The notes beneath the pieces are model-generated. The model was not told where the DNA came from and did not search any database. It saw only the letters and a list, made by a program, of their open reading frames with translations. Made by a program: the position numbers and the translations under genes. Positions 2,214 to 9,518 of a stretch of DNA of 9,518 nt are shown in pieces. How positions within the stretch are numbered: position 1 is the stretch's first letter; each line of letters opens with the position of its first letter. Source of the DNA: Deltaproteobacteria bacterium (GTDB lineage: Bacteria; Myxococcota; B64-G9); assembly GCA_030591745.1 (NCBI GenBank), contig JAUVAM010000071.1, positions 1-9,518 of the forward strand, read 5' to 3'.

Positions 2214-3266
2214 TCAGGGCTTCGATGGGGAACCTCCGCTTTTTTCTTCTTTTTTGTCGTTGGCTCGATTGGCGGCCACACCGGCTGGTGCGCCCAGTCG
2301 AGCCGTGTAGCCCTTACCATAGAAAGGATCCAGGGGGCGGGTGTCCACGGCAATGCGTTCGGGCAGGGGCTCAATCTGATCTGCCCCGGGGGCAGGGATG
2401 GAAGGCGGGTTGCCGAATCCGTCGGCGCTGATATCCGCCTTGACCGTCAAGCGCATGGCCTCGCCCTGCTCACCTTGCCAGGCCAGCTTGCCTGAAAATT
2501 CCACAAAGAGAATGCAGCCATTGTCCGCGTCTACCACCAGTCGGCCTTCGGCTGATTGGGCCACGGCCTTGTCCCGCCAGTGATCCCGATCAGCCGGGGT
2601 GGGCTGAATGGGGTAGACATACTCTGTCACGCCCTTGGGCGTCTTGACTGGCTCGGGACTGCCCGAAAGATGGGGCCCCTCGGCGGCCAGGCCGATGCGG
2701 AAAGCCAATCCGTCGCGTCCGTGGTGGCGGGTCAGGCCTTGCTTCGCAAAGTGCAGGCCGCCGCGGAAGAGGCGGTAGATGGATCCCCATGCGTCGTATG
2801 CCTTGTTTCGCCATTTCGTGTGCAGTCCGTCCAATTGGCTGCGCTTGTGGTAGGGGCTGTAACGGTTGCGAACGAACAAATCACCGCCCGAATAGACCAT
2901 CTCGTAGCCCTGGTCGCCTTTGTTGTCCACCTTGATCCGGAAGTCGCCGTTGTGGGCCAATACGATAAGGGCGCTTTCCTTTAGTTGTACCCGCTCTTTT
3001 TCTCTGGTGAAGATGAAGTCTACTTTACCCTGGTAGCGGTGGGCGCCTAAGCGCTGGGCCACCTCGTCGAAGGTCATGGCGTGGATGCGGTCGGCCACTT
3101 CCTCTGAATCGCTCAAGGAATAAACATCCGGCGGCGGCGGCAGCTCTTTGGGCTGGTCGGTCTTGGGGTCGGCGTATTTCTCCAAGTGGGCCTCCATTTT
3201 GTCGCTGCAAGCGAACAAGCCGGATGCCAAGATCACGAAAATCAACTTGTAGCCAAACGCCTTCAT
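2214..3266 (-). CDS. lipoprotein of unknown function
   Basis: A 350-residue protein starts at ATG 3264-3266, chosen because it begins a classic lipoprotein signal: MKAFGYKLIFVILASGLFAC, with lipobox LFAC and Cys20. A longer frame reaches 3350 but adds a non-signal N-terminus that runs into the divergent gene. Ser at +2 favours the outer membrane by the E. coli rule. After a Pro-rich linker (PKELPPPPD) comes a body with alternating strands (FIFTREKERVQLKESALIVLAHNGDFRIKV and similar). This reminds me of LolA/LolB/RseB-like lipoprotein folds, but no signature residue confirms that. The tail is Lys-rich. It is first in a likely unit with rsfS and comF. Function not assigned. Confidence 0.85.
   Translation of the reverse strand: MKAFGYKLIFVILASGLFACSDKMEAHLEKYADPKTDQPKELPPPPDVYSLSDSEEVADRIHAMTFDEVAQRLGAHRYQGKVDFIFTREKERVQLKESALIVLAHNGDFRIKVDNKGDQGYEMVYSGGDLFVRNRYSPYHKRSQLDGLHTKWRNKAYDAWGSIYRLFRGGLHFAKQGLTRHHGRDGLAFRIGLAAEGPHLSGSPEPVKTPKGVTEYVYPIQPTPADRDHWRDKAVAQSAEGRLVVDADNGCILFVEFSGKLAWQGEQGEAMRLTVKADISADGFGNPPSIPAPGADQIEPLPERIAVDTRPLDPFYGKGYTARLGAPAGVAANRANDKKEEKSGGSPSKP
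2233..2237 (-). promoter_or_regulatory. Shine-Dalgarno GGAGG that appears to serve rsfS
   Basis: GGAGG (minus strand, inside the last codons of the lipoprotein gene) is 6 bases from an in-frame ATC codon (2224-2226) but 21 bases from the TTG at 2209-2211 and 15 from a CTG at 2215-2217. Normal spacing is about 5-9 bases, so it points to the ATC as the start. No ATG, GTG or TTG lies at the proper distance in the rsfS frame. Confidence 0.5.
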
Positions 3267-3288
3267 GGCGCTCAATGTGCACCATTTG

Positions 3289-3358: not shown

Positions 3359-4918
3359 ATGTTGGATTGGAGCGAATTGGCGGGTCTGCGTGTTATTGGG
3401 CGCATGGCCGAGATGATTAACCAACGTTGGAACCTGGGCGTGGGCTTCGCGGACGAGCGAGGTCGGCTGATCGACACCCCCACCATCCAGCGATACGCTA
3501 CCGTTCGCCCGTTTTGTGATCTCTTGCGACGTACGCCCGAGGGGCGAAGGCGCTGCGATGCCGTGGCTCAGCAGATGATCGAGCACCACCGGGCCGGGGC
3601 CGAGAAACCGGGCCCGGCCTGCATGAGTTGCCATGCAGGCCTGTTCGAGCCCTACGTGCCCGTAAGCATGGACGGACAGTTTGAAGGTTTGCTATTGGCC
3701 GGCGGATTCCTGCGCGAAGAAACGCGCGAGGCCCAGAGCCTAGAAGTGCTTGCGCGTTGTGCGGACCTATCCATCCCCAAAGACGATCTGCGCCGGGCTC
3801 TGGAGCGCACCCCCGTGCTCAGCTCTGAAGGCGAGCGCTTGCTCCAGGATCTTTTGGAGCTGGTGGTCAACGAGATATTGATTTTTCGCGAAGAGGTGAC
3901 CCGCAAAGAACGGCGTCTGGATCGCCTGACCCGGGAATTGGCGGAACGCTCCGAATACGGGCAGCTCATCGGCAAGAGTCCGGCTATGCGATCACTATAC
4001 CGCACCCTGGATAAGGTGGCGGCCAGTGATTCCAGCGTGCTCATCCTGGGCGAGAACGGCACGGGCAAAGAGTTGGTGGCTCGGGCTCTTCACTTCCATT
4101 CGGATCGCAAAGACAAGCCCTTCATTGTGCAGAACTGCTCAGCCTTCAACGACAATCTTCTGGATAGCGAGCTCTTCGGCCACGCCCGGGGTGCTTTCAC
4201 GGGTGCCGTGGGCACCAAGAAGGGCTTGTTCGAAGTGGCGGACGGTGGAACCTTCTTTTTGGACGAGATCGGCGACATGAGTCCCACCTTGCAGGTGAAG
4301 CTTCTGCGCGTCCTGCAAGAGGGCACCTTTATCCCGGTGGGCTCCACCCAGACCAGAAAAGTGGACGTGCGAATCATCGCCGCCACGAATCGGGACCTGA
4401 AGAGCATGGTGGACCAGGGTTTGTACCGCGAGGATCTCTACTATCGCATCAACGTGGTCACATTGTCCCTGCCCCCTCTGCGTGATCGCCTGGAGGATCT
4501 GCCGATGCTGGTCGATCACTTTCTGGCGCGTCATGGCCCCGAGAGCAAGACTCGTCTGTCCAGCGATTGCCTGGATCGCATGATGGATTTCAACTGGCCG
4601 GGCAACGTGCGCGAGTTGGAGAACGAAATCGAGCGTTTGCTGGTGCTTCAAGGCGACAGCGAGGTCATCGGCGAAGAGTTTCTGTCTTCGCGCATTCGTT
4701 ATGAGATCTACCCGGGCGGCGCGGCCCCCGGTGGGCCTCGAGAGCAGGCGCCCTCTTTGCACGAGGCGGTGGAGCGCTTAGAGCGCACCATGATTCTCGA
4801 CCACCTGAAGCGCTCGCGCTGGAACAAGACCAAAGCGGCGGATAGCCTGGGTATTTCAAGGCGCAACCTGATCCGCAAAGTGCAGGCCTTCGATTTGGAC
4901 CGCAGAAAAAACCGATGA
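3359..4918 (+). CDS. PocR-domain sigma54-dependent transcriptional activator
   Basis: This 519-residue bacterial enhancer-binding protein starts at ATG 3359, at the family-like N-terminus MLDWSELAGLRVIGRMAEMIN. Residues ~5-150 match a PocR sensor: FCDLLRRTPEGRRRCD, then ACMSCHAGLFEPYVPV and GLLLAGGF. A charged helical linker follows (~170-205). The AAA+ core has Walker A GENGTGKE (231-238), the sigma54-contacting GAFTGA loop (278-283) and Walker B FFLDEIGD (Asp302-Glu303), then NWPGNVRELENEIERL. A Fis-type helix-turn-helix (~489-513, KTKAADSLGISRRNLIRKVQ) ends it. All catalytic motifs are intact, so it should remodel the sigma54-RNA polymerase closed complex. There is no receiver domain, so control is presumably by a ligand or redox state sensed by PocR. 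Its targets are unknown; no good sigma54 promoter was found nearby. Confidence 0.93.
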   Translation: MLDWSELAGLRVIGRMAEMINQRWNLGVGFADERGRLIDTPTIQRYATVRPFCDLLRRTPEGRRRCDAVAQQMIEHHRAGAEKPGPACMSCHAGLFEPYVPVSMDGQFEGLLLAGGFLREETREAQSLEVLARCADLSIPKDDLRRALERTPVLSSEGERLLQDLLELVVNEILIFREEVTRKERRLDRLTRELAERSEYGQLIGKSPAMRSLYRTLDKVAASDSSVLILGENGTGKELVARALHFHSDRKDKPFIVQNCSAFNDNLLDSELFGHARGAFTGAVGTKKGLFEVADGGTFFLDEIGDMSPTLQVKLLRVLQEGTFIPVGSTQTRKVDVRIIAATNRDLKSMVDQGLYREDLYYRINVVTLSLPPLRDRLEDLPMLVDHFLARHGPESKTRLSSDCLDRMMDFNWPGNVRELENEIERLLVLQGDSEVIGEEFLSSRIRYEIYPGGAAPGGPREQAPSLHEAVERLERTMILDHLKRSRWNKTKAADSLGISRRNLIRKVQAFDLDRRKNR

Positions 4919-4925
4919 TGTGATT

Positions 4926-5735
4926 TCAGGCGCGGGTGGCTTCCATGACGCCCAGATTCAAGCTCAGCTCAAAGCCATCGGGAAAATAGGTATCCAAGGA
5001 GCGAATCATGCCGGCCAAGACACCCTCGCGCCAGGAACGATCCGGGATGAGCTTGATGCAGGCATCCAAGCAGTATTCCCGCACCAGGGGTGACTGCAGG
5101 AGGGGCAGGGCGCCGGGGAAGGGAATGTTGAAGTTTTCTGTGCGCACGTCGATGTCTTCGAGCTGTGCTTCCTCAAGCATCGCCGTGCATGTGGCCTTGT
5201 TGGGCATGCGGCGGATGAGTTGATCCAGGGCGTCTTGGGTTTGGGTCAGATCTTCTTTTTCTAAGACTTCGCGGAAGACGTCAAAAACTTCCTGGAAACT
5301 GCCTTCCATGGCCACGCCCAGGCGCAGAAAAGCGCCGGGCAGCATCAGGCGCCGGGCCTCGCCAAGCACCTTCAATATTTCGTATTTGGGCGGTAGACCC
5401 GCGGCCAAAACCGCATCGAAGGTTTCGTCGGCAAAAGAGAGATGATCCGGGGGTTCTTTCTTGAAGAAGACCTGCTTGCGGTCAAAGTCCAAGACCTTGT
5501 GTCTGCCGATTTCCATCAACTCACGGATGTCGTCGATGGCAATAACACGGCCGCCCTCGGCAAGTCGGCCCAAAAGCTTTTCGGTCAAGTGGCCCGTGCT
5601 GCAGGCCAGGTCCAGGAGCATGGGTTTTGCCGGCAGCGTCTCCGGAAAGTTCTCCAGCAGCATCCGGGTGAAGGGCTCATCCCAGTGGGGGAAGATGGTG
5701 TCTTCGTAAGCCTTGGCAAGTTTTTCAGGATCCAT
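4926..5735 (-). CDS. class I SAM-dependent methyltransferase, substrate unknown
   Basis: The 269-residue protein starts at ATG 5733-5735 (MDPEKLAKAYEDTIFPHWDEPF); a TTG at 5774 would add 13 unremarkable residues. Motif I is LLDLACSTG (40-48), followed by the acidic end of strand 2, RVIAIDD (63-69). Then come SFADETFDAVLAAGLPPKYE and LGEARRLMLPGAFLRLGV, the usual Rossmann order of ubiE/methyltransf_11-type enzymes. The C-terminal ~130 residues are helical and family-specific, and I cannot name the acceptor from them. There is no DPPY/NPPY motif, so a DNA adenine or cytosine-N4 role is unlikely. It lies 70 bases downstream of the TPR-like gene and converges on the activator with 7 bases between stops. 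Confidence 0.88.
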   Translation of the reverse strand: MDPEKLAKAYEDTIFPHWDEPFTRMLLENFPETLPAKPMLLDLACSTGHLTEKLLGRLAEGGRVIAIDDIRELMEIGRHKVLDFDRKQVFFKKEPPDHLSFADETFDAVLAAGLPPKYEILKVLGEARRLMLPGAFLRLGVAMEGSFQEVFDVFREVLEKEDLTQTQDALDQLIRRMPNKATCTAMLEEAQLEDIDVRTENFNIPFPGALPLLQSPLVREYCLDACIKLIPDRSWREGVLAGMIRSLDTYFPDGFELSLNLGVMEATRA

Positions 5736-5745
5736 AACAGGAACC

Positions 5746-5774
5746 GGTCTACCACAGGGCCAGTCCTTTGCCAA
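5746..5774 (-). promoter_or_regulatory. weak possible promoter of the methyltransferase gene
   Basis: On the minus strand: TTGGCA (5769-5774, 5/6), a 17-base spacer, TAGACC (5746-5751, 3/6), ending 10 bases before the ATG at 5735. If real, the methyltransferase can be transcribed apart from the TPR-like gene and the upstream TTG is not a start. The match is marginal. Confidence 0.25.
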
Positions 5775-5805
5775 GATTGAGGGGGACGTTGTTGCGTTAT
5801 TCTCG

Positions 5806-6318
5806 TTAATCGATTTTGGCGGCAGCTGCCTTGGGTTTTTTGCGGGGGCGTTTTAGTCGCTGGATGCGGCCGACCAGGTTTTGGACGAGTCGCTCCATTT
5901 CGACAAGGGCCATGTCTTTGGGGCGGAGCTTTCGGGCCCGGGTTAGATCGTCTTGGGCTTCCAGTGCCATGTCCTCGTTCCATTTCAGGTATCCCAGGGT
6001 CAAGAGGGTGCGAGCGCTTGCTCGGAGTACGCCTGAATGATCCGGATGAATCTTCTTGGCCTGGGCCAAAAGAGTACGTGCGTTTTCATAGCGGCCCAAA
6101 GAAAGCATGCTCAGGGCCTCGTCGAGCAAACTTTCTGCTTGGGCCAGAACTTCGGGATCGATTTGTGGCTTGGGCTTGGGTTTTTCGGTCTTGCCCATCA
6201 CGTGATCCGCTTCGATGGTGACCGGCTTCAGGTCCAGTCGGCGAGCCTGGGCTGCAAGCGGTGTCAGCGAGAACATGACCAGGATGAGCCACGAGGTGAT
6301 ATTGCAGCCAAGCTTCAT
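5806..6318 (-). CDS. small exported TPR-like protein
   Basis: The 170-residue protein has a Sec signal peptide (MKLGCNITSWLILVMFSLTP then LAAQA), predicted to be cut after Ala25 at AQA-RR. Cys5 lies too early to be a lipobox Cys. A Lys/Pro linker (KTEKPKPKPQ) precedes two helical-hairpin repeats of TPR type: AESLLDEALSMLSLGRYENARTLLAQAKKIHPD at ~61-93, and ~97-134 ending LTRARKLRPKD. A very basic tail follows (RLKRPRKKPKAAAAK). TPRs mediate protein-protein contacts; the protein would act in the periplasm. The role is unknown. It lies upstream of, and may be co-transcribed with, the methyltransferase. The ATG at 6316-6318 has no Shine-Dalgarno. Confidence 0.8.
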   Translation of the reverse strand: MKLGCNITSWLILVMFSLTPLAAQARRLDLKPVTIEADHVMGKTEKPKPKPQIDPEVLAQAESLLDEALSMLSLGRYENARTLLAQAKKIHPDHSGVLRASARTLLTLGYLKWNEDMALEAQDDLTRARKLRPKDMALVEMERLVQNLVGRIQRLKRPRKKPKAAAAKID

Positions 6319-6324
6319 GGGCGC

Positions 6325-6353
6325 ATGCTAACAAGAGGCGCATCGCGCGGCAA
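6325..6353 (-). promoter_or_regulatory. possible promoter of the TPR-like gene (near leaderless)
   Basis: On the minus strand: TTGCCG (6348-6353, 4/6), a 17-base spacer, TAGCAT (6325-6330, 4/6). Transcription would start about 6-7 bases past the -10, at or next to the ATG (6318), so the mRNA would be leaderless. This fits the absence of a Shine-Dalgarno. Confidence 0.4.
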
Positions 6354-6370
6354 GAAGCCAGGCTCCTTCG

Positions 6371-6398
6371 TTGACAGATTGGTCGCGGCGCGGATAGC
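6371..6398 (+). promoter_or_regulatory. possible promoter of the short ORF-nuclease-hexapeptide operon
   Basis: A perfect -35 TTGACA (6371-6376), a 16-base spacer and a weak -10 GATAGC (6393-6398, 3/6). The predicted start falls within one or two bases of the ATG at 6407, which has no Shine-Dalgarno, so the transcript could be leaderless. It lies outside the repeated segment, so only the upstream copy of the repeat has this promoter. Confidence 0.45.
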
Positions 6399-6405
6399 CT
6401 GACAA

Positions 6406-6494
6406 CATGAAAGCTTACGTACTCCCAAGCGGCAAGCGCATTTCGCCTTTCGGCGATCCCGTGTCTGAGTCCATGATCGGCAACGAGCGACTGG
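6406..6494 (+). repeat. 89-bp direct repeat, upstream copy
   Basis: Matches 7556-7644 with three mismatches (two adjacent at 6432-6433, one at 6490) and no gaps; the offset is 1150 bp. The match begins one base before the start codon and ends abruptly after CTGG. It is therefore the first 29 codons of the hexapeptide gene, copied in front of the nuclease gene. Confidence 0.97.
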
Positions 6495-6508
6495 ATACAC
6501 CCGCATGA
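6407..6508 (+). pseudogene. truncated 5' copy of the hexapeptide gene, reads as a 33-residue ORF
   Basis: ATG at 6407 opens a 33-codon frame. Residues 1-29 are identical to those of the gene at 7557 except Ser13 for Ala13. It then departs (DTPA) and stops with a TGA whose first bases form the nuclease start (ATGA at 6505-6508). The frame is intact and the substitutions are mostly silent. It could therefore be translated as a leader that delivers ribosomes to the nuclease start, or it may simply be debris of the insertion. It is too short to keep the parent function. Confidence 0.7.
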
Positions 6509-7555
6509 GCGATATCGTCCTCTCCGCCGACTACCTGTCCTTCGTCGAAGCCATTAAGGAGCGCGTGCGCACAGCCCAGATTCGGGCATCGCTTTCGGTT
6601 AACCAGGAGTTGGTGCTTTTGTACTGGCGCATCGGCAAGGACATCCTCAGCCGGCAGGAGAGGCTTGGCTGGGGTGCCAAGGTGGTGGTCCAGGTGGCGA
6701 AGGATTTGCGTAGGGCCTTCCCGGAGATGAGGGGCTTCTCGGCCAGAAATCTCAAATATATGCGGGCTTTTGCCGAGGCTTGGCCCGACGAGGAGTTTGT
6801 GCAGCAGGCTGCTGCACAAATCCCCTGGTTTCATAACGTCGTCATCATCCAGAAGGTCAAGGAGCCCGAGGCAAGACGTTTCTATGTGGAGTTCACGCGG
6901 ATCCATGGGTGGTCTCGGGCTATCCTCGGTGTCCAGATCGAGCAGAGTCGCCACCAGCGCCAAGGCCAGGCGCTCAGCAACTTCGAGCGCACCTTGCCGC
7001 CGTCCCAATCCGACCTCGCTCAACAGATCACCAAGGACCCATACTGTTTCGATTTTCTCACTCTCGCGGGCGACGCACATGAGCGCGAATTGGAGCGAGG
7101 CCTTGTGGAACACATCCGCGATTTCCTCGTGGAGTTGGGCGTCGGCTTTGCATTTATGGGTACACAGGTTCACTTGAGTGTCGGGGAGCAGGATTTCTAT
7201 CTCGACATGCTTTTTTATCACGTCAAGCTGCGTTGTTATGTGGTGATAGAGCTGAAGGCAAAAGGCTTTAAGCCCGAGTATGCAGGCAAGCTGAACTTCT
7301 ATCTTTCCGCGGTGGATGATTTGCTACGACACGAGGCTGACCAGCCCACGGTGGGCATCTTGCTGTGCAAAACCAAGGACGATGTGGTCGTCGAGTACGC
7401 CCTGCGCGATATGAACAAACCTATAGGCGTTGCGGGCTGGGAGACCAGGCTGGTGGAGTCATTGCCCGAGGATCTCAAGGGAATACTTCCCTCCGTGGAG
7501 GAACTTGAGGCAGAACTCGCCAAGAAACAGATGGGCACACTCGAAGGGAATGACG
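6495..7555 (+). mobile_element. candidate gene-sized insertion flanked by 89-bp target duplication
   Basis: The 1061 bp between the two repeat copies contain the nuclease gene plus only 10 bases ahead of its ATG; its stop codon lies in the second repeat copy. There is no transposase, integrase or terminal inverted repeat. Repeats of this length flanking a nuclease gene fit insertion with long target duplication, a pattern reported for restriction-modification genes. The boundaries are exact from the repeat; the mechanism is inferred. Confidence 0.5.
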
Positions 7556-7560
7556 CATGA
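6505..7560 (+). CDS. DUF1016/YhcG-type PD-(D/E)xK nuclease
   Basis: A 351-residue protein of typical length for the family. The N-terminal ~150 residues match the DUF1016 helical domain (VNQELVLLYWRIGKDI, LGWGAKVVVQVAKDLRRAFP, GFSARNLKYMRAFAEAWP, IPWFHNVVII). The C-terminal part holds the nuclease core. Asp234 in DFYLDMLFYH is followed by Glu249 and Lys251 in YVVIELKAK, the D-x14-E-x-K arrangement, then KPEYAGKLNFYLSAVDD, so the active site appears intact. Relatives often sit beside restriction-modification and other defence genes, which suggests DNA cleavage in defence, but no partner methyltransferase or specificity subunit is present here. The start overlaps the short ORF (ATGA 6505-6508) and the stop overlaps the next gene (ATGA 7557-7560), so translation is probably coupled on both sides. 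Confidence 0.93.
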   Translation: MSDIVLSADYLSFVEAIKERVRTAQIRASLSVNQELVLLYWRIGKDILSRQERLGWGAKVVVQVAKDLRRAFPEMRGFSARNLKYMRAFAEAWPDEEFVQQAAAQIPWFHNVVIIQKVKEPEARRFYVEFTRIHGWSRAILGVQIEQSRHQRQGQALSNFERTLPPSQSDLAQQITKDPYCFDFLTLAGDAHERELERGLVEHIRDFLVELGVGFAFMGTQVHLSVGEQDFYLDMLFYHVKLRCYVVIELKAKGFKPEYAGKLNFYLSAVDDLLRHEADQPTVGILLCKTKDDVVVEYALRDMNKPIGVAGWETRLVESLPEDLKGILPSVEELEAELAKKQMGTLEGNDA

Positions 7561-7644
7561 AAGCTTACGTACTCCCAAGCGGCAAGCGCATCGCGCCTTT
7601 CGGCGATCCCGTGTCTGAGTCCATGATCGGCAACGAGCGGCTGG
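7556..7644 (+). repeat. 89-bp direct repeat, downstream copy
   Basis: Second copy of the segment at 6406-6494. Here it is the genuine 5' end of the full-length gene starting at 7557. No promoter lies immediately upstream because the nuclease coding sequence occupies that space. Confidence 0.97.
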
Positions 7645-8954
7645 CTGATATCCAGCGGCGGGTCATGGGTGGGGCGGGGTTGGAGGTGATCTTTGTCGAG
7701 TCGGTGGCCGAGATCATGGACCGTCGCTTTGTGTTGACCTATGACGATGTGTTTTTCACCAAGCGGGTTTTTGACGATTTGATGCGCCAGGCCAAGGCTG
7801 GCGGAGGCTTGCGTTGTGGCTTGCCGGCGGAAAGCTTGTTGGTCAAGCGCACTCGACCTTTGCAAAAACTCGATGAGGCGGAGGTGGATGGCGAGAAGTT
7901 GGCGCTGTATCGACTTTACGTTTTAGAGGGCGATTCGGTGCCGGGCTCCGAGGCCGAGCTGAAGCAGCTGATGGCGGAGGCCCGACCGGTGAGGGCGCGG
8001 TTCAAGGAAAAGGTTGTCGGCGTACCCACGCCGCCCAACATCGTCGGCTACAGTCACTACGAACATCCGGTGACCTCCAGCGTGGTCATGGAGATCGGCC
8101 ATTGGGTGCATCGGCTTTGGGCCAACCAGCTGTCCATTCAGATCCACTGGGTGGAGACCATTTTAGGGCGCAAGTTTTGGACCGCCGGCAAGCTTTTGGC
8201 CACGGGCTTAGGCGGCCTTCTCTCGGGCGCCCGCGTGCCCGGCTTCAAGTGGTCGGCGGCCAAAAGTTTCAATCGCATCGGGCGCAACTGCGACATCCAC
8301 CCCACGGCCCGGCTCGAGTTTTGCCAACTGGGTGACAACGTGCGGGTGGGGGCCTACGCCCTGGTGCGCGGCAGCCTGCTTGGCGACAACGTGCAGATCG
8401 AAGATCGGGCCAACGTGATCTTTTCGGTCATCGGTCACGATTGTTTCATCAGCAAGAATTCAACCCTGGTTTTTTGCGCCGGCTATCCGGAAGGCGATCT
8501 CTGCATCAACGGCATTCAATGTACGCTCTTCGGTCGCAAGGTAGCCATGACCAGCCTCGTGCGCGTGGTGGACATCAAGGCCAAAGGCGAGATCCAGGTC
8601 CTGCACGAAGGCGAGCTTCAGCCGGTGGGTACCAATTTCTTGGGTGCCTGTTTTGGGCACGAGGTTTTTGCAGGCTTGGACGTAACCGTGCAGTCAGGCC
8701 GGGCCGTGCCCAACGGCACGGTGCTGGTCAAGGACCCGGACAGCATCCTGCGCAGCATCCCCGAGACCTCGCCCACCAACACCCCGATGATGATCGAAGG
8801 CGGCACCACCGTGCCCGTGCCCACCCGGACTGTGCCCGTGCCCACTCGGACTGTGCCCGTGCCCACACGGACTGTGCCCGTGCCCACACGGAGCACAAAG
8901 GCCGGTCGTACTCGAAAGGCCTCCCGTCAGCGAGAGAACAAGAGCCGTTCTTGA
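7557..8954 (+). CDS. GlmU-like protein: N-terminal NTP-transferase-like part and hexapeptide beta-helix
   Basis: 465 residues. The N-terminus (MKAYVLPSGKRIAPFGDPVSES, then VFVLTYDDVFFTK-like strand at ~58-69) resembles the degenerate sugar-nucleotidyltransferase half of GlmU-like proteins but lacks a clear nucleotide-binding GxGTRM signature. Residues ~241-300 (IGRNCDIHPTARLEFCQLGD onward) and ~340-395 contain the isoleucine/valine-spaced hexapeptide turns of a left-handed beta-helix, interrupted by an insert. Such proteins usually transfer acyl groups to sugars or sugar nucleotides for cell-envelope glycans; substrate and activity are not determined here. The ATG overlaps the nuclease stop. 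The C-terminus (418-465) is a 7-residue repeat array followed by a basic, low-complexity tail and looks added onto the domain. Confidence 0.8.
   Translation: MKAYVLPSGKRIAPFGDPVSESMIGNERLADIQRRVMGGAGLEVIFVESVAEIMDRRFVLTYDDVFFTKRVFDDLMRQAKAGGGLRCGLPAESLLVKRTRPLQKLDEAEVDGEKLALYRLYVLEGDSVPGSEAELKQLMAEARPVRARFKEKVVGVPTPPNIVGYSHYEHPVTSSVVMEIGHWVHRLWANQLSIQIHWVETILGRKFWTAGKLLATGLGGLLSGARVPGFKWSAAKSFNRIGRNCDIHPTARLEFCQLGDNVRVGAYALVRGSLLGDNVQIEDRANVIFSVIGHDCFISKNSTLVFCAGYPEGDLCINGIQCTLFGRKVAMTSLVRVVDIKAKGEIQVLHEGELQPVGTNFLGACFGHEVFAGLDVTVQSGRAVPNGTVLVKDPDSILRSIPETSPTNTPMMIEGGTTVPVPTRTVPVPTRTVPVPTRTVPVPTRSTKAGRTRKASRQRENKSRS
8808..8891 (+). repeat. four tandem 21-bp units encoding TVPVPTR
   Basis: Four head-to-tail units start at 8808, 8829, 8850 and 8871. 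They differ only in the third bases of Thr codons (ACC/ACT at unit starts; ACC, ACT, ACA, ACA before CGG). Each unit is exactly seven codons, so gain or loss of units keeps the frame. It codes residues 418-445 of the hexapeptide protein. Confidence 0.97.
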
Positions 8955-8982
8955 GTTCGGAAGGGTTCGAAGCGCAAGGAGG

Positions 8983-9000
8983 AAAAAGCACGCTTGTGCC
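8983..9000 (-). terminator. weak candidate terminator of the right-hand Cys-rich gene
   Basis: Read on the minus strand downstream of the stop at 9069: GCAC-AAGC-GTGC (8988-8999) followed by five T (8983-8987). The stem is only 4 bp, perhaps 5 with a G-T pair. A second hairpin at 9002-9016 precedes it. Confidence 0.35.
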
Positions 9001-9001
9001 A

Positions 9002-9016
9002 GTCCCTTTTGGGGAC
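9002..9016. other. short hairpin GTCCC-TTTTG-GGGAC
   Basis: Perfect 5-bp arms with a 5-base loop, two bases from the hairpin at 8988-8999, in the 114-base gap between convergent genes. It could be part of the termination region or a REP-like intergenic repeat. One copy alone cannot show which. Confidence 0.4.
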
Positions 9017-9068
9017 ATAAGTCATGATGGTCTCGGCGTGTCCAAGGGGAGCCCAGAGCAAGTTTCAA

Positions 9069-9518
9069 TCAAGGAGGAGTGCAAACGTTGCCGACGCAGT
9101 TCCAGGCCGTTTGCCAGAAGTCGCAGTTCGGGTTGTTTGAACAGCCGCAGACGCTGTCTACACAGTTGAAACTGTTGTCGCAGGCCATACCGCAGCCGCT
9201 GCAGTTGGACTCGTCGTTGTTGATGTTTGTTTCGCAACCGTTGTTGGGGTTGGTGTCGCAGTTGGCGTGAGTGGCGTCGCAGCTCGGGGTGCAGACGCCT
9301 GTGATGCAGGTGTTGGTGCCGCCAATGGCCTGGCACACGGTGTCACAGTCGCCGCAGTTGGACTCGTCGTTGTTGATGTTTGTTTCGCAACCGTTGTTGG
9401 GGTTGGTGTCGCAGTTGCCGTGATTGGCGTCGCAGCTCGGGGTGCAGAAACCGTTGATACAAGTGTTGGTGCCGCCATTGGCTTGGCAGACGGTGCCGCA
9501 GCCGCCGCAGTTGGACTC
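9069..9518 (-). CDS. Cys-rich repeat protein, 5' end beyond window
   Basis: The frame is open from the right edge for 149 codons and stops at TGA 9069-9071; the N-terminus is missing, so export is only inferred. The sequence consists of 51-residue repeats with a Cys pattern of CETNINNDESNC, CxxC, TVCQ, GGTNTCI, GxCTPSCD and NCDTNPNNG. It ends in a divergent Cys-rich cap (CGCSNNPNCDFWQTAWNCVG). NGCETN-type repeats are common in large secreted proteins of Myxococcota and related bacteria, probably disulfide-stabilised and possibly binding calcium through the Asp/Asn-rich segments. The function is unknown. It differs in repeat type from the Cys-rich lipoprotein at the left edge. Confidence 0.85.
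   Translation of the reverse strand, partial: ESNCGGCGTVCQANGGTNTCINGFCTPSCDANHGNCDTNPNNGCETNINNDESNCGDCDTVCQAIGGTNTCITGVCTPSCDATHANCDTNPNNGCETNINNDESNCSGCGMACDNSFNCVDSVCGCSNNPNCDFWQTAWNCVGNVCTPP
9201..9518 (-). repeat. 153-bp tandem repeat within the Cys-rich gene
   Basis: Units begin at 9201, 9354 and 9507 (the last cut by the window edge), a constant period of 153 bp or 51 codons. The two complete units differ at about 14 of 153 positions, and their first 64 bases are identical. The period is an exact multiple of three, so changes in copy number keep the frame. Confidence 0.95.

Follow-up and report, generated by a model that had tools for sequence, protein, structure and literature searches.

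It is poorly understood how single genes enter bacterial chromosomes when they have no mobility functions. A case in point is a 9,518-nucleotide stretch of DNA from a deltaproteobacterium (hereafter, the window), in which a nuclease gene lies between two copies of the beginning of the next gene. The features concerned are listed below, where G001 is the nearest genome compared and L001 its corresponding locus.

5806..6318, minus strand: TPR-repeat protein gene, divergent; ancestral left neighbour of the hexapeptide gene (Pfam)
6319..6405, strand not given: intergenic stretch before the target gene, presumed promoter; conserved in G001
6406..6494, plus strand: upstream copy of the 89-bp repeat, a relic of the hexapeptide gene 5' end
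6407..6508, plus strand: leader ORF of 33 aa, predicted from sequence; relic 5' end plus 10 insert bases
6495..7555, plus strand: inserted segment of 1061 bp, absent from G001 (L001)
6505..7560, plus strand: DUF1016/YhcG-type PD-(D/E)XK nuclease gene, 351 aa (ORF, Pfam, PADLOC)
7556..7644, plus strand: downstream repeat copy, the intact 5' end of the hexapeptide gene
7557..8954, plus strand: hexapeptide-repeat (LbH) transferase-like gene, 465 aa, whole (ORF, Pfam; ortholog in G001)

Anatomy of the insert and its nuclease

The direct repeat is 89 nt long. Its copies (6406-6494 and 7556-7644) start 1150 bases apart and are identical at 86 of 89 positions, i.e., with three mismatches. Given that a blastn comparison between the two insert flanks yielded E 5e-39, the repeat is not of chance origin. 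Each copy starts one base ahead of an ATG (C6406 before the ATG at 6407, C7556 before that at 7557), and the upstream copy comprises this base and the first 88 coding bases of the hexapeptide gene. The final four bases of the nuclease gene, stop codon included, fall within the downstream copy. At the left junction, the TGA of the leader ORF overlaps the nuclease ATG in an ATGA (6505-6508); at the right junction, the nuclease stop lies within another ATGA (7557-7560). A reading of the window made from its sequence alone had described an 89-bp repeat around a 1061-bp insert, the repeat being the start of a downstream gene left whole and both stop/start junctions being ATGA, and our coordinates agree with it throughout.

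The only ORF of note in the insert is the nuclease gene; the insert contains no methyltransferase, and Pfam found no transposase domain in the ten window ORFs, also as that reading had held. The Ubie-like methyltransferase at 4926-5774 (Pfam) is common to the window and G001, and is therefore host DNA. The G+C content is 0.565 in the insert, 0.61 in the hexapeptide gene and 0.587 in the left part of the window, so the insert bears no strong foreign signature.

The stretch at 6319-6405 would act as the promoter. A TTGACA upstream of the target gene (6371-6376) is conserved in G001, and a scan of 6250-7700 for the sigma-70 consensus yielded 0 sites, against 0.5 expected. Near the end of the nuclease gene, an AAGGGAA (7544-7550) six bases ahead of the hexapeptide ATG could be the ribosome site of the hexapeptide gene. 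Judging from this anatomy, the nuclease gene is predicted to have captured its neighbour's promoter and to be coupled with it in an operon.

The nuclease protein matches DUF1016_N (E 6.7e-43, 146.5 bits, cut-off 32.8) and the YhcG_C PDDEXK nuclease domain (E 6.1e-66, 221.5 bits, cut-off 32.5) in Pfam. These are the N- and C-terminal domains of the YhcG/DUF1016 family (COG4804, PF06250 with PF17761), to which the gene had already been assigned. Its catalytic residues, chosen by motif, are D234 and E249-L-K251; all 25 aligned homologs share D234 and K251. It thereby shares the conserved D and ELK positions of the family, has no trait that distinguishes it from other members, and contains by sequence the family catalytic motif E-D-E(I/L/V)K, as given in an extract from PMC1189080. 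The closest database protein, P0001, is 93% identical and of the same length, with a C-terminus near that of the window protein. PADLOC labels the protein as a defence candidate (PDC-S02, E 1.8e-152), and because the family is such a candidate, this is most likely a solitary anti-phage nuclease. According to extracts from PMC1189080 and PMC4316617, the family is found in restriction-modification clusters and on mobile elements; target duplication goes unmentioned in these extracts, and literature searches returned no published titles on target duplication around DUF1016/YhcG genes.

The empty site in a related genome

G001 encodes an ortholog of the hexapeptide protein (95% protein identity), and its locus is the empty site. 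Window positions 4928-6494 align to L001 22-1588 at 94.6%, and positions 7556-9108 align to L001 1500-3115 at 89.4%. In L001, the stretch common to both alignments is exactly the 89 bp (1500-1588), present there in a single copy. The best match to the window nuclease in G001 presents 42% identity over part of the protein.

In comparison with G001, both window copies share two differences. The upstream copy differs at four of 89 positions, two of which are private and adjacent and give an Ala to Ser change; the downstream copy is identical at 86 of 89, and its one private change is synonymous. The copy with the amino-acid change is the relic. Given that two bases common to both copies separate them from G001, the repeat is probably the host's own sequence, i.e., the gene start of this lineage.

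Of 30 hexapeptide loci fetched, sixteen from relatives (L001-L016) were examined with flanks of up to 1.5 kb, and the nuclease was found in none of them. The TPR and hexapeptide genes are adjacent in four (L001, L002, L003 and L005), the last three of which represent three other genera of the family. The absence of the nuclease from all sixteen loci and the adjacency of its neighbours in four indicate that it was gained in the window's lineage. The sequence-only reading had interpreted the locus as a solitary nuclease inserted with a long target duplication and had looked to relatives for an uninterrupted locus, which G001 provides. It had also held that relatives all carrying the nuclease and both copies would speak against it, and the sixteen loci present the reverse.

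Flanking repeats around DUF1016 and control genes

The survey of DUF1016 loci drew on two overlapping sets of 97 and 195 genomes from the phylum, on 80 genome contigs of many phyla and on 9 viral contigs. Given that at least 300 bp were required on both sides, 158 of 170 distinct loci were testable. Flanking repeats were defined as same-strand matches of at least 40 nt, with E <= 1e-5, within 600 bp on both sides. They occur at 17 of the 158 loci, with duplications 41-367 nt long; of the 191 other ORFs of 250-500 aa within these loci, one is flanked in this way. Four rows are doubtful: L109 (tandem nuclease copies), L076 (a third copy in the locus), L128 (41 nt, more than 400 bp away) and L236 (a third copy 2.2 kb downstream). 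Leaving these out yields 13/158 against 1/191 (p 0.0004). L118, L225 and L245 were counted as repeat-flanked, though without a clear target duplication. Since L057 and L060 are one site in one genus, and L094 and L120 present the same hsdM-hsdS arrangement, there are fewer independent events than loci counted. In a first screen, L035 proved to be a tandem copy and L059 a self-match; L154 (601 nt) and L160 (243 nt), also from that screen, lie outside the tighter criterion.

The genes that served as targets differ: the repeat-flanked loci lie at unrelated gene starts, at a tRNA-Pro gene and at the 3' ends of genes. In the window, L047, L111, L243 and L064, it is the downstream gene whose 5' edge is repeated; in L052, L057/L060 and L094/L120 (the hsdM-hsdS boundary), it is the 3' edge of the gene upstream. 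Like the window, these loci hold an insert between direct repeats of a neighbouring gene's end, with about 1.0-1.5 kb of DUF1016 DNA, which in L057 is a DUF1016 remnant. Across the window and 11 other repeat-flanked loci, no common end sequence was found, nor any exact terminal inverted repeat of more than 6 bp within 40 nt of the insert ends. L057/L060 occupy a variable hot spot where no clean empty site was found; L044 and L039, likewise in variable regions, yielded no clean pair of empty and filled sites; and in the family or genus searched, there was no second genome with which to compare L047 and L052.

Several of these loci are of interest in themselves. In L064, the copies that enclose the DUF1016 gene (182-257 and 1587-1662) correspond to the 5' part of a tRNA-Pro gene and the region upstream of it, and the tRNA gene itself is complete at 1621-1697; the insert contains no integrase, and the locus looks like integration at a tRNA gene. 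L243, which is in G001, holds another DUF1016 gene between diverged copies (1688-1846 and 3101-3286) of the region in which the downstream gene starts, its first codons included, i.e., the window's arrangement at a different gene. L094 and L120 (about 3830-5112 in each) have a DUF1016 gene between hsdM and hsdS, with repeats of 56-57 nt of the hsdM 3' end and a downstream copy that ends at the hsdS start. L060 (G078:C1 near 1439548) is a variable spot that adjoins the 3' end of one gene in a genus represented by 16 genomes. Its content varies between species, and a related gene end borders the DUF1016 locus L245 in another genus.

Against ordinary ORFs, initially 1/122 and then 1/191, the repeats had looked decisively specific to the nuclease. 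Two mobile families overturned this: flanking repeats were found at 4 of 97 AAA_14/DUF4143-type ATPase genes of the same phylum (2/76 in an earlier, partial look) and at 3 of 66 Fic genes, all of the latter more loosely spaced. Loci without a clear ORF (28 of 130 for AAA_14 and 17 of 90 for Fic), duplicates, and loci with less than 300 bp of flank were left out of these controls. The bounds of the nuclease genes came from tblastn and those of the control genes from ORFs, which may introduce a slight bias. The overall DUF1016 frequency compares with that of the ATPases at p 0.065 and with that of Fic genes at p 0.20; within the phylum, 9/76 DUF1016 loci against 4/97 ATPases gives p 0.08. The pooled mobile families (7/163) differ from ordinary ORFs (1/191) at p 0.027, and DUF1016 (17/158) differs from the pooled families at p 0.034 by Fisher's test, or p 0.17 with 13/158. 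In a count made by hand and after the fact, both repeats lay within 200 bp of the gene in 10/158 DUF1016 loci, 4/97 ATPases, 0/66 Fic genes and 0/191 ordinary ORFs, with p 0.036 for DUF1016 against Fic genes (0.061 without L236). Given that ordinary neighbouring ORFs are a poor control and that two mobile families also present repeats, specificity for the nuclease is not established.

Among the controls, two DUF4143-type ATPases have tight direct-repeat flanks, L300:2802-4249 (71 nt, 97%) and L448:2110-3567 (51 nt, 100%), so that the signature recurs in a second family of solitary genes, and one repeat-flanked ATPase also matches the nuclease-related domain NERD. The sole control ORF with long direct repeats, L100:1571-3817 (218 nt, 94%), is possibly another single-gene insertion.

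A second DUF1016 insertion can be dated. L031, in G056 and also in G078, is an insertion of 1196 bp that immediately follows a stop codon; the corresponding sites of G072 and G058 are empty. In comparison with these, one empty-site base is unaligned and there is no long duplication. The insertion is also absent from G141, G083, G069 and G074, with less exact edges, and G064 aligns to the locus on the left flank only. Together with the control families, L031 indicates that long duplication is neither constant for DUF1016 nor exclusive to it. The sequence-only reading had suggested a search for further DUF1016 genes between 60-150 bp repeats of the next gene's 5' end. The excess over ordinary ORFs (17/158 against 1/191) is in line with a wider occurrence, yet several repeats are instead the upstream gene's 3' end, ATPase and Fic genes are repeat-flanked as well, and L031 lacks a long duplication. 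Its interpretation is, overall, partly supported.

Routes of entry

Any explanation has to account for an empty site with the 89 bp present once, host-lineage bases in both copies, and an insert with neither a transposase nor inverted ends. We consider it fairly likely that a DNA fragment was captured without a transposase and joined illegitimately at two points of one gene. A fragment with one DUF1016 nuclease gene would have entered the 5' end of the hexapeptide gene after the split from G001, its left end attaching behind base 89 of the target stretch and its right end ahead of base 1, so that the 89 bp between the two joints would be copied on both sides of the insert. The joining may have proceeded by end-joining or by template switching, with each fragment end attached to a different sister copy of the locus and no dedicated recombinase to catalyze the reaction. 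The event presumably survived because the downstream gene was complete, the nuclease lay behind the target's start region, and ATGA overlaps existed on both sides; anti-phage action would favour retention of the nuclease. Survival of both neighbours need not mean targeting, given that gene-breaking insertions would be lost. Illegitimate joining is favoured by the variable duplication length, including none, by the varied sites, by the lack of inverted or common ends and by the non-nuclease cases. Opposed to it is the nominal excess of repeats around DUF1016 over the pooled mobile controls, in which the nuclease could have a role, although the excess fades when doubtful loci are left out.

The structure of the locus also matches a single crossover of a circle with 89 bp of homology. 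In this case, the nuclease and an 89-bp copy would circulate among relatives as a circular or linear donor that enters empty sites by homologous recombination, the long duplication having been made once, elsewhere. P0001, given its similar C-terminus, may occupy the same site, but no link was seen from it to the 42 hexapeptide homologs listed (E <= 1e-50). Moreover, the two bases common to both copies against G001 require a donor from the same lineage, and an initial event creating the duplication is still needed. We thus find homologous transfer unlikely as the origin of the locus; as a second step, it may carry an already formed cassette into the same site. It is very improbable that the nuclease and both copies are ancestral and were lost from G001: recombination between the direct repeats would restore exactly the uninterrupted gene, but none of the sixteen hexapeptide loci holds the nuclease, including the three from other genera that keep the TPR-hexapeptide adjacency. 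Hardly credible at all is an assembly artefact joining two strains or two loci: three positions distinguish the two copies, the reading frame of the nuclease is unbroken, and G001 is collinear with the window on either flank. Repeat-flanked DUF1016 genes are, besides, found in genomes assembled as a single contig (L057 in G072, L060 in G078).

The remaining contrast is whether the nuclease drives its own insertion or is a passenger. If the DUF1016 protein itself cut or nicked the target twice, at a distance of tens to hundreds of bases, and repair left a long duplication, the gene would be a transposase-free single-gene mobile element. The PD-(D/E)XK domain with its invariant D234 and K251, the excess of repeats over ordinary ORFs, the closer spacing than in Fic genes and the NERD match of one repeat-flanked ATPase are in line with this. 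However, Fic genes, which are not nucleases, also present repeats, the DUF1016 frequency compares with those of Fic genes and ATPases only at the values given above, and the datable insertion L031 has no long duplication. The varied sites and the absence of a common end sequence also count against it, as do the varied lengths, which would be uniform if the cutting machine were a fixed one. We therefore regard self-mobilisation as improbable. Equally doubtful is the broader proposal that solitary PD-(D/E)XK genes (DUF1016 and DUF4143-type ATPases) are single-gene mobile elements of a class that needs no transposase, in which the encoded nuclease would open its target at two points far apart and repair would produce a 50-220-bp duplication at a gene edge; if true, such a gene would spread without breaking host genes and would borrow their start regions.

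Insertion with long target duplication was reportedly described by Nobusato, Uchiyama, Ohashi and Kobayashi in 2000, and by Furuta, Abe and Kobayashi in 2010. Extracts from PMC1643837, PMC3031569, PMC3874152 and PMC4978471 present it for restriction-modification genes of H. pylori. Its direct repeats are 'in the order of 100 bp', of variable length, and arise without a transposase (extracts from PMC3874152; also PMC1643837 and PMC3031569), and component genes of some systems are said to move alone (an extract from PMC3874152). As far as these extracts go, the window shares the insertion relative to a related genome, the lack of a transposase and the long target repeats, and its repeat is likewise single at the orthologous empty site (L001 1500-1588). 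The cargo differs, being one nuclease gene with no methyltransferase rather than a restriction-modification system, and, unlike the known insertions, the insert lies at the first bases of the target gene with ATGA overlaps on both sides. The event in the window thus works like a restriction-modification insertion but is not one. Nor is it a transposon or insertion sequence, since the insert has no transposase gene and no terminal inverted repeats, exact inverted matches of 6 bp or more being absent within 40 nt of its ends, and it differs from a homing endonuclease gene in that repeat-flanked DUF1016 loci lie at different genes instead of a single conserved target. Arabidopsis transposed genes, according to an extract from PMC2869330, are single non-transposon genes that lie between long, directly repeated stretches of host DNA, and the orthologous empty site has such a stretch once, as for the window; these cases differ in that they are from a plant and are partly explained by tandem duplicates and circle integration.

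What we judge to be new here is a solitary nuclease gene at a gene start whose insertion is polarised by an empty site. The window and G001 constitute a clean, polarised before-and-after pair for the entry of such a gene, which suggests that solitary genes, too, use the long-target-duplication route of restriction-modification genes. The edge of a neighbouring gene present as direct repeats is a simple search signature for such events; if it is general, some truncated leader ORFs or relic gene ends beside defence genes would be footprints of gene capture.

The window contains further repetitive sequence apart from the insert. Near the 3' end of the hexapeptide gene, 21-bp tandem repeats (8808-8891) encode TVPVPTR units. 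Cysteine-rich repetitive proteins with no Pfam match are encoded at both window ends (3-1019 and 9069-9518), the second of which has a repeat unit of 153 bp.
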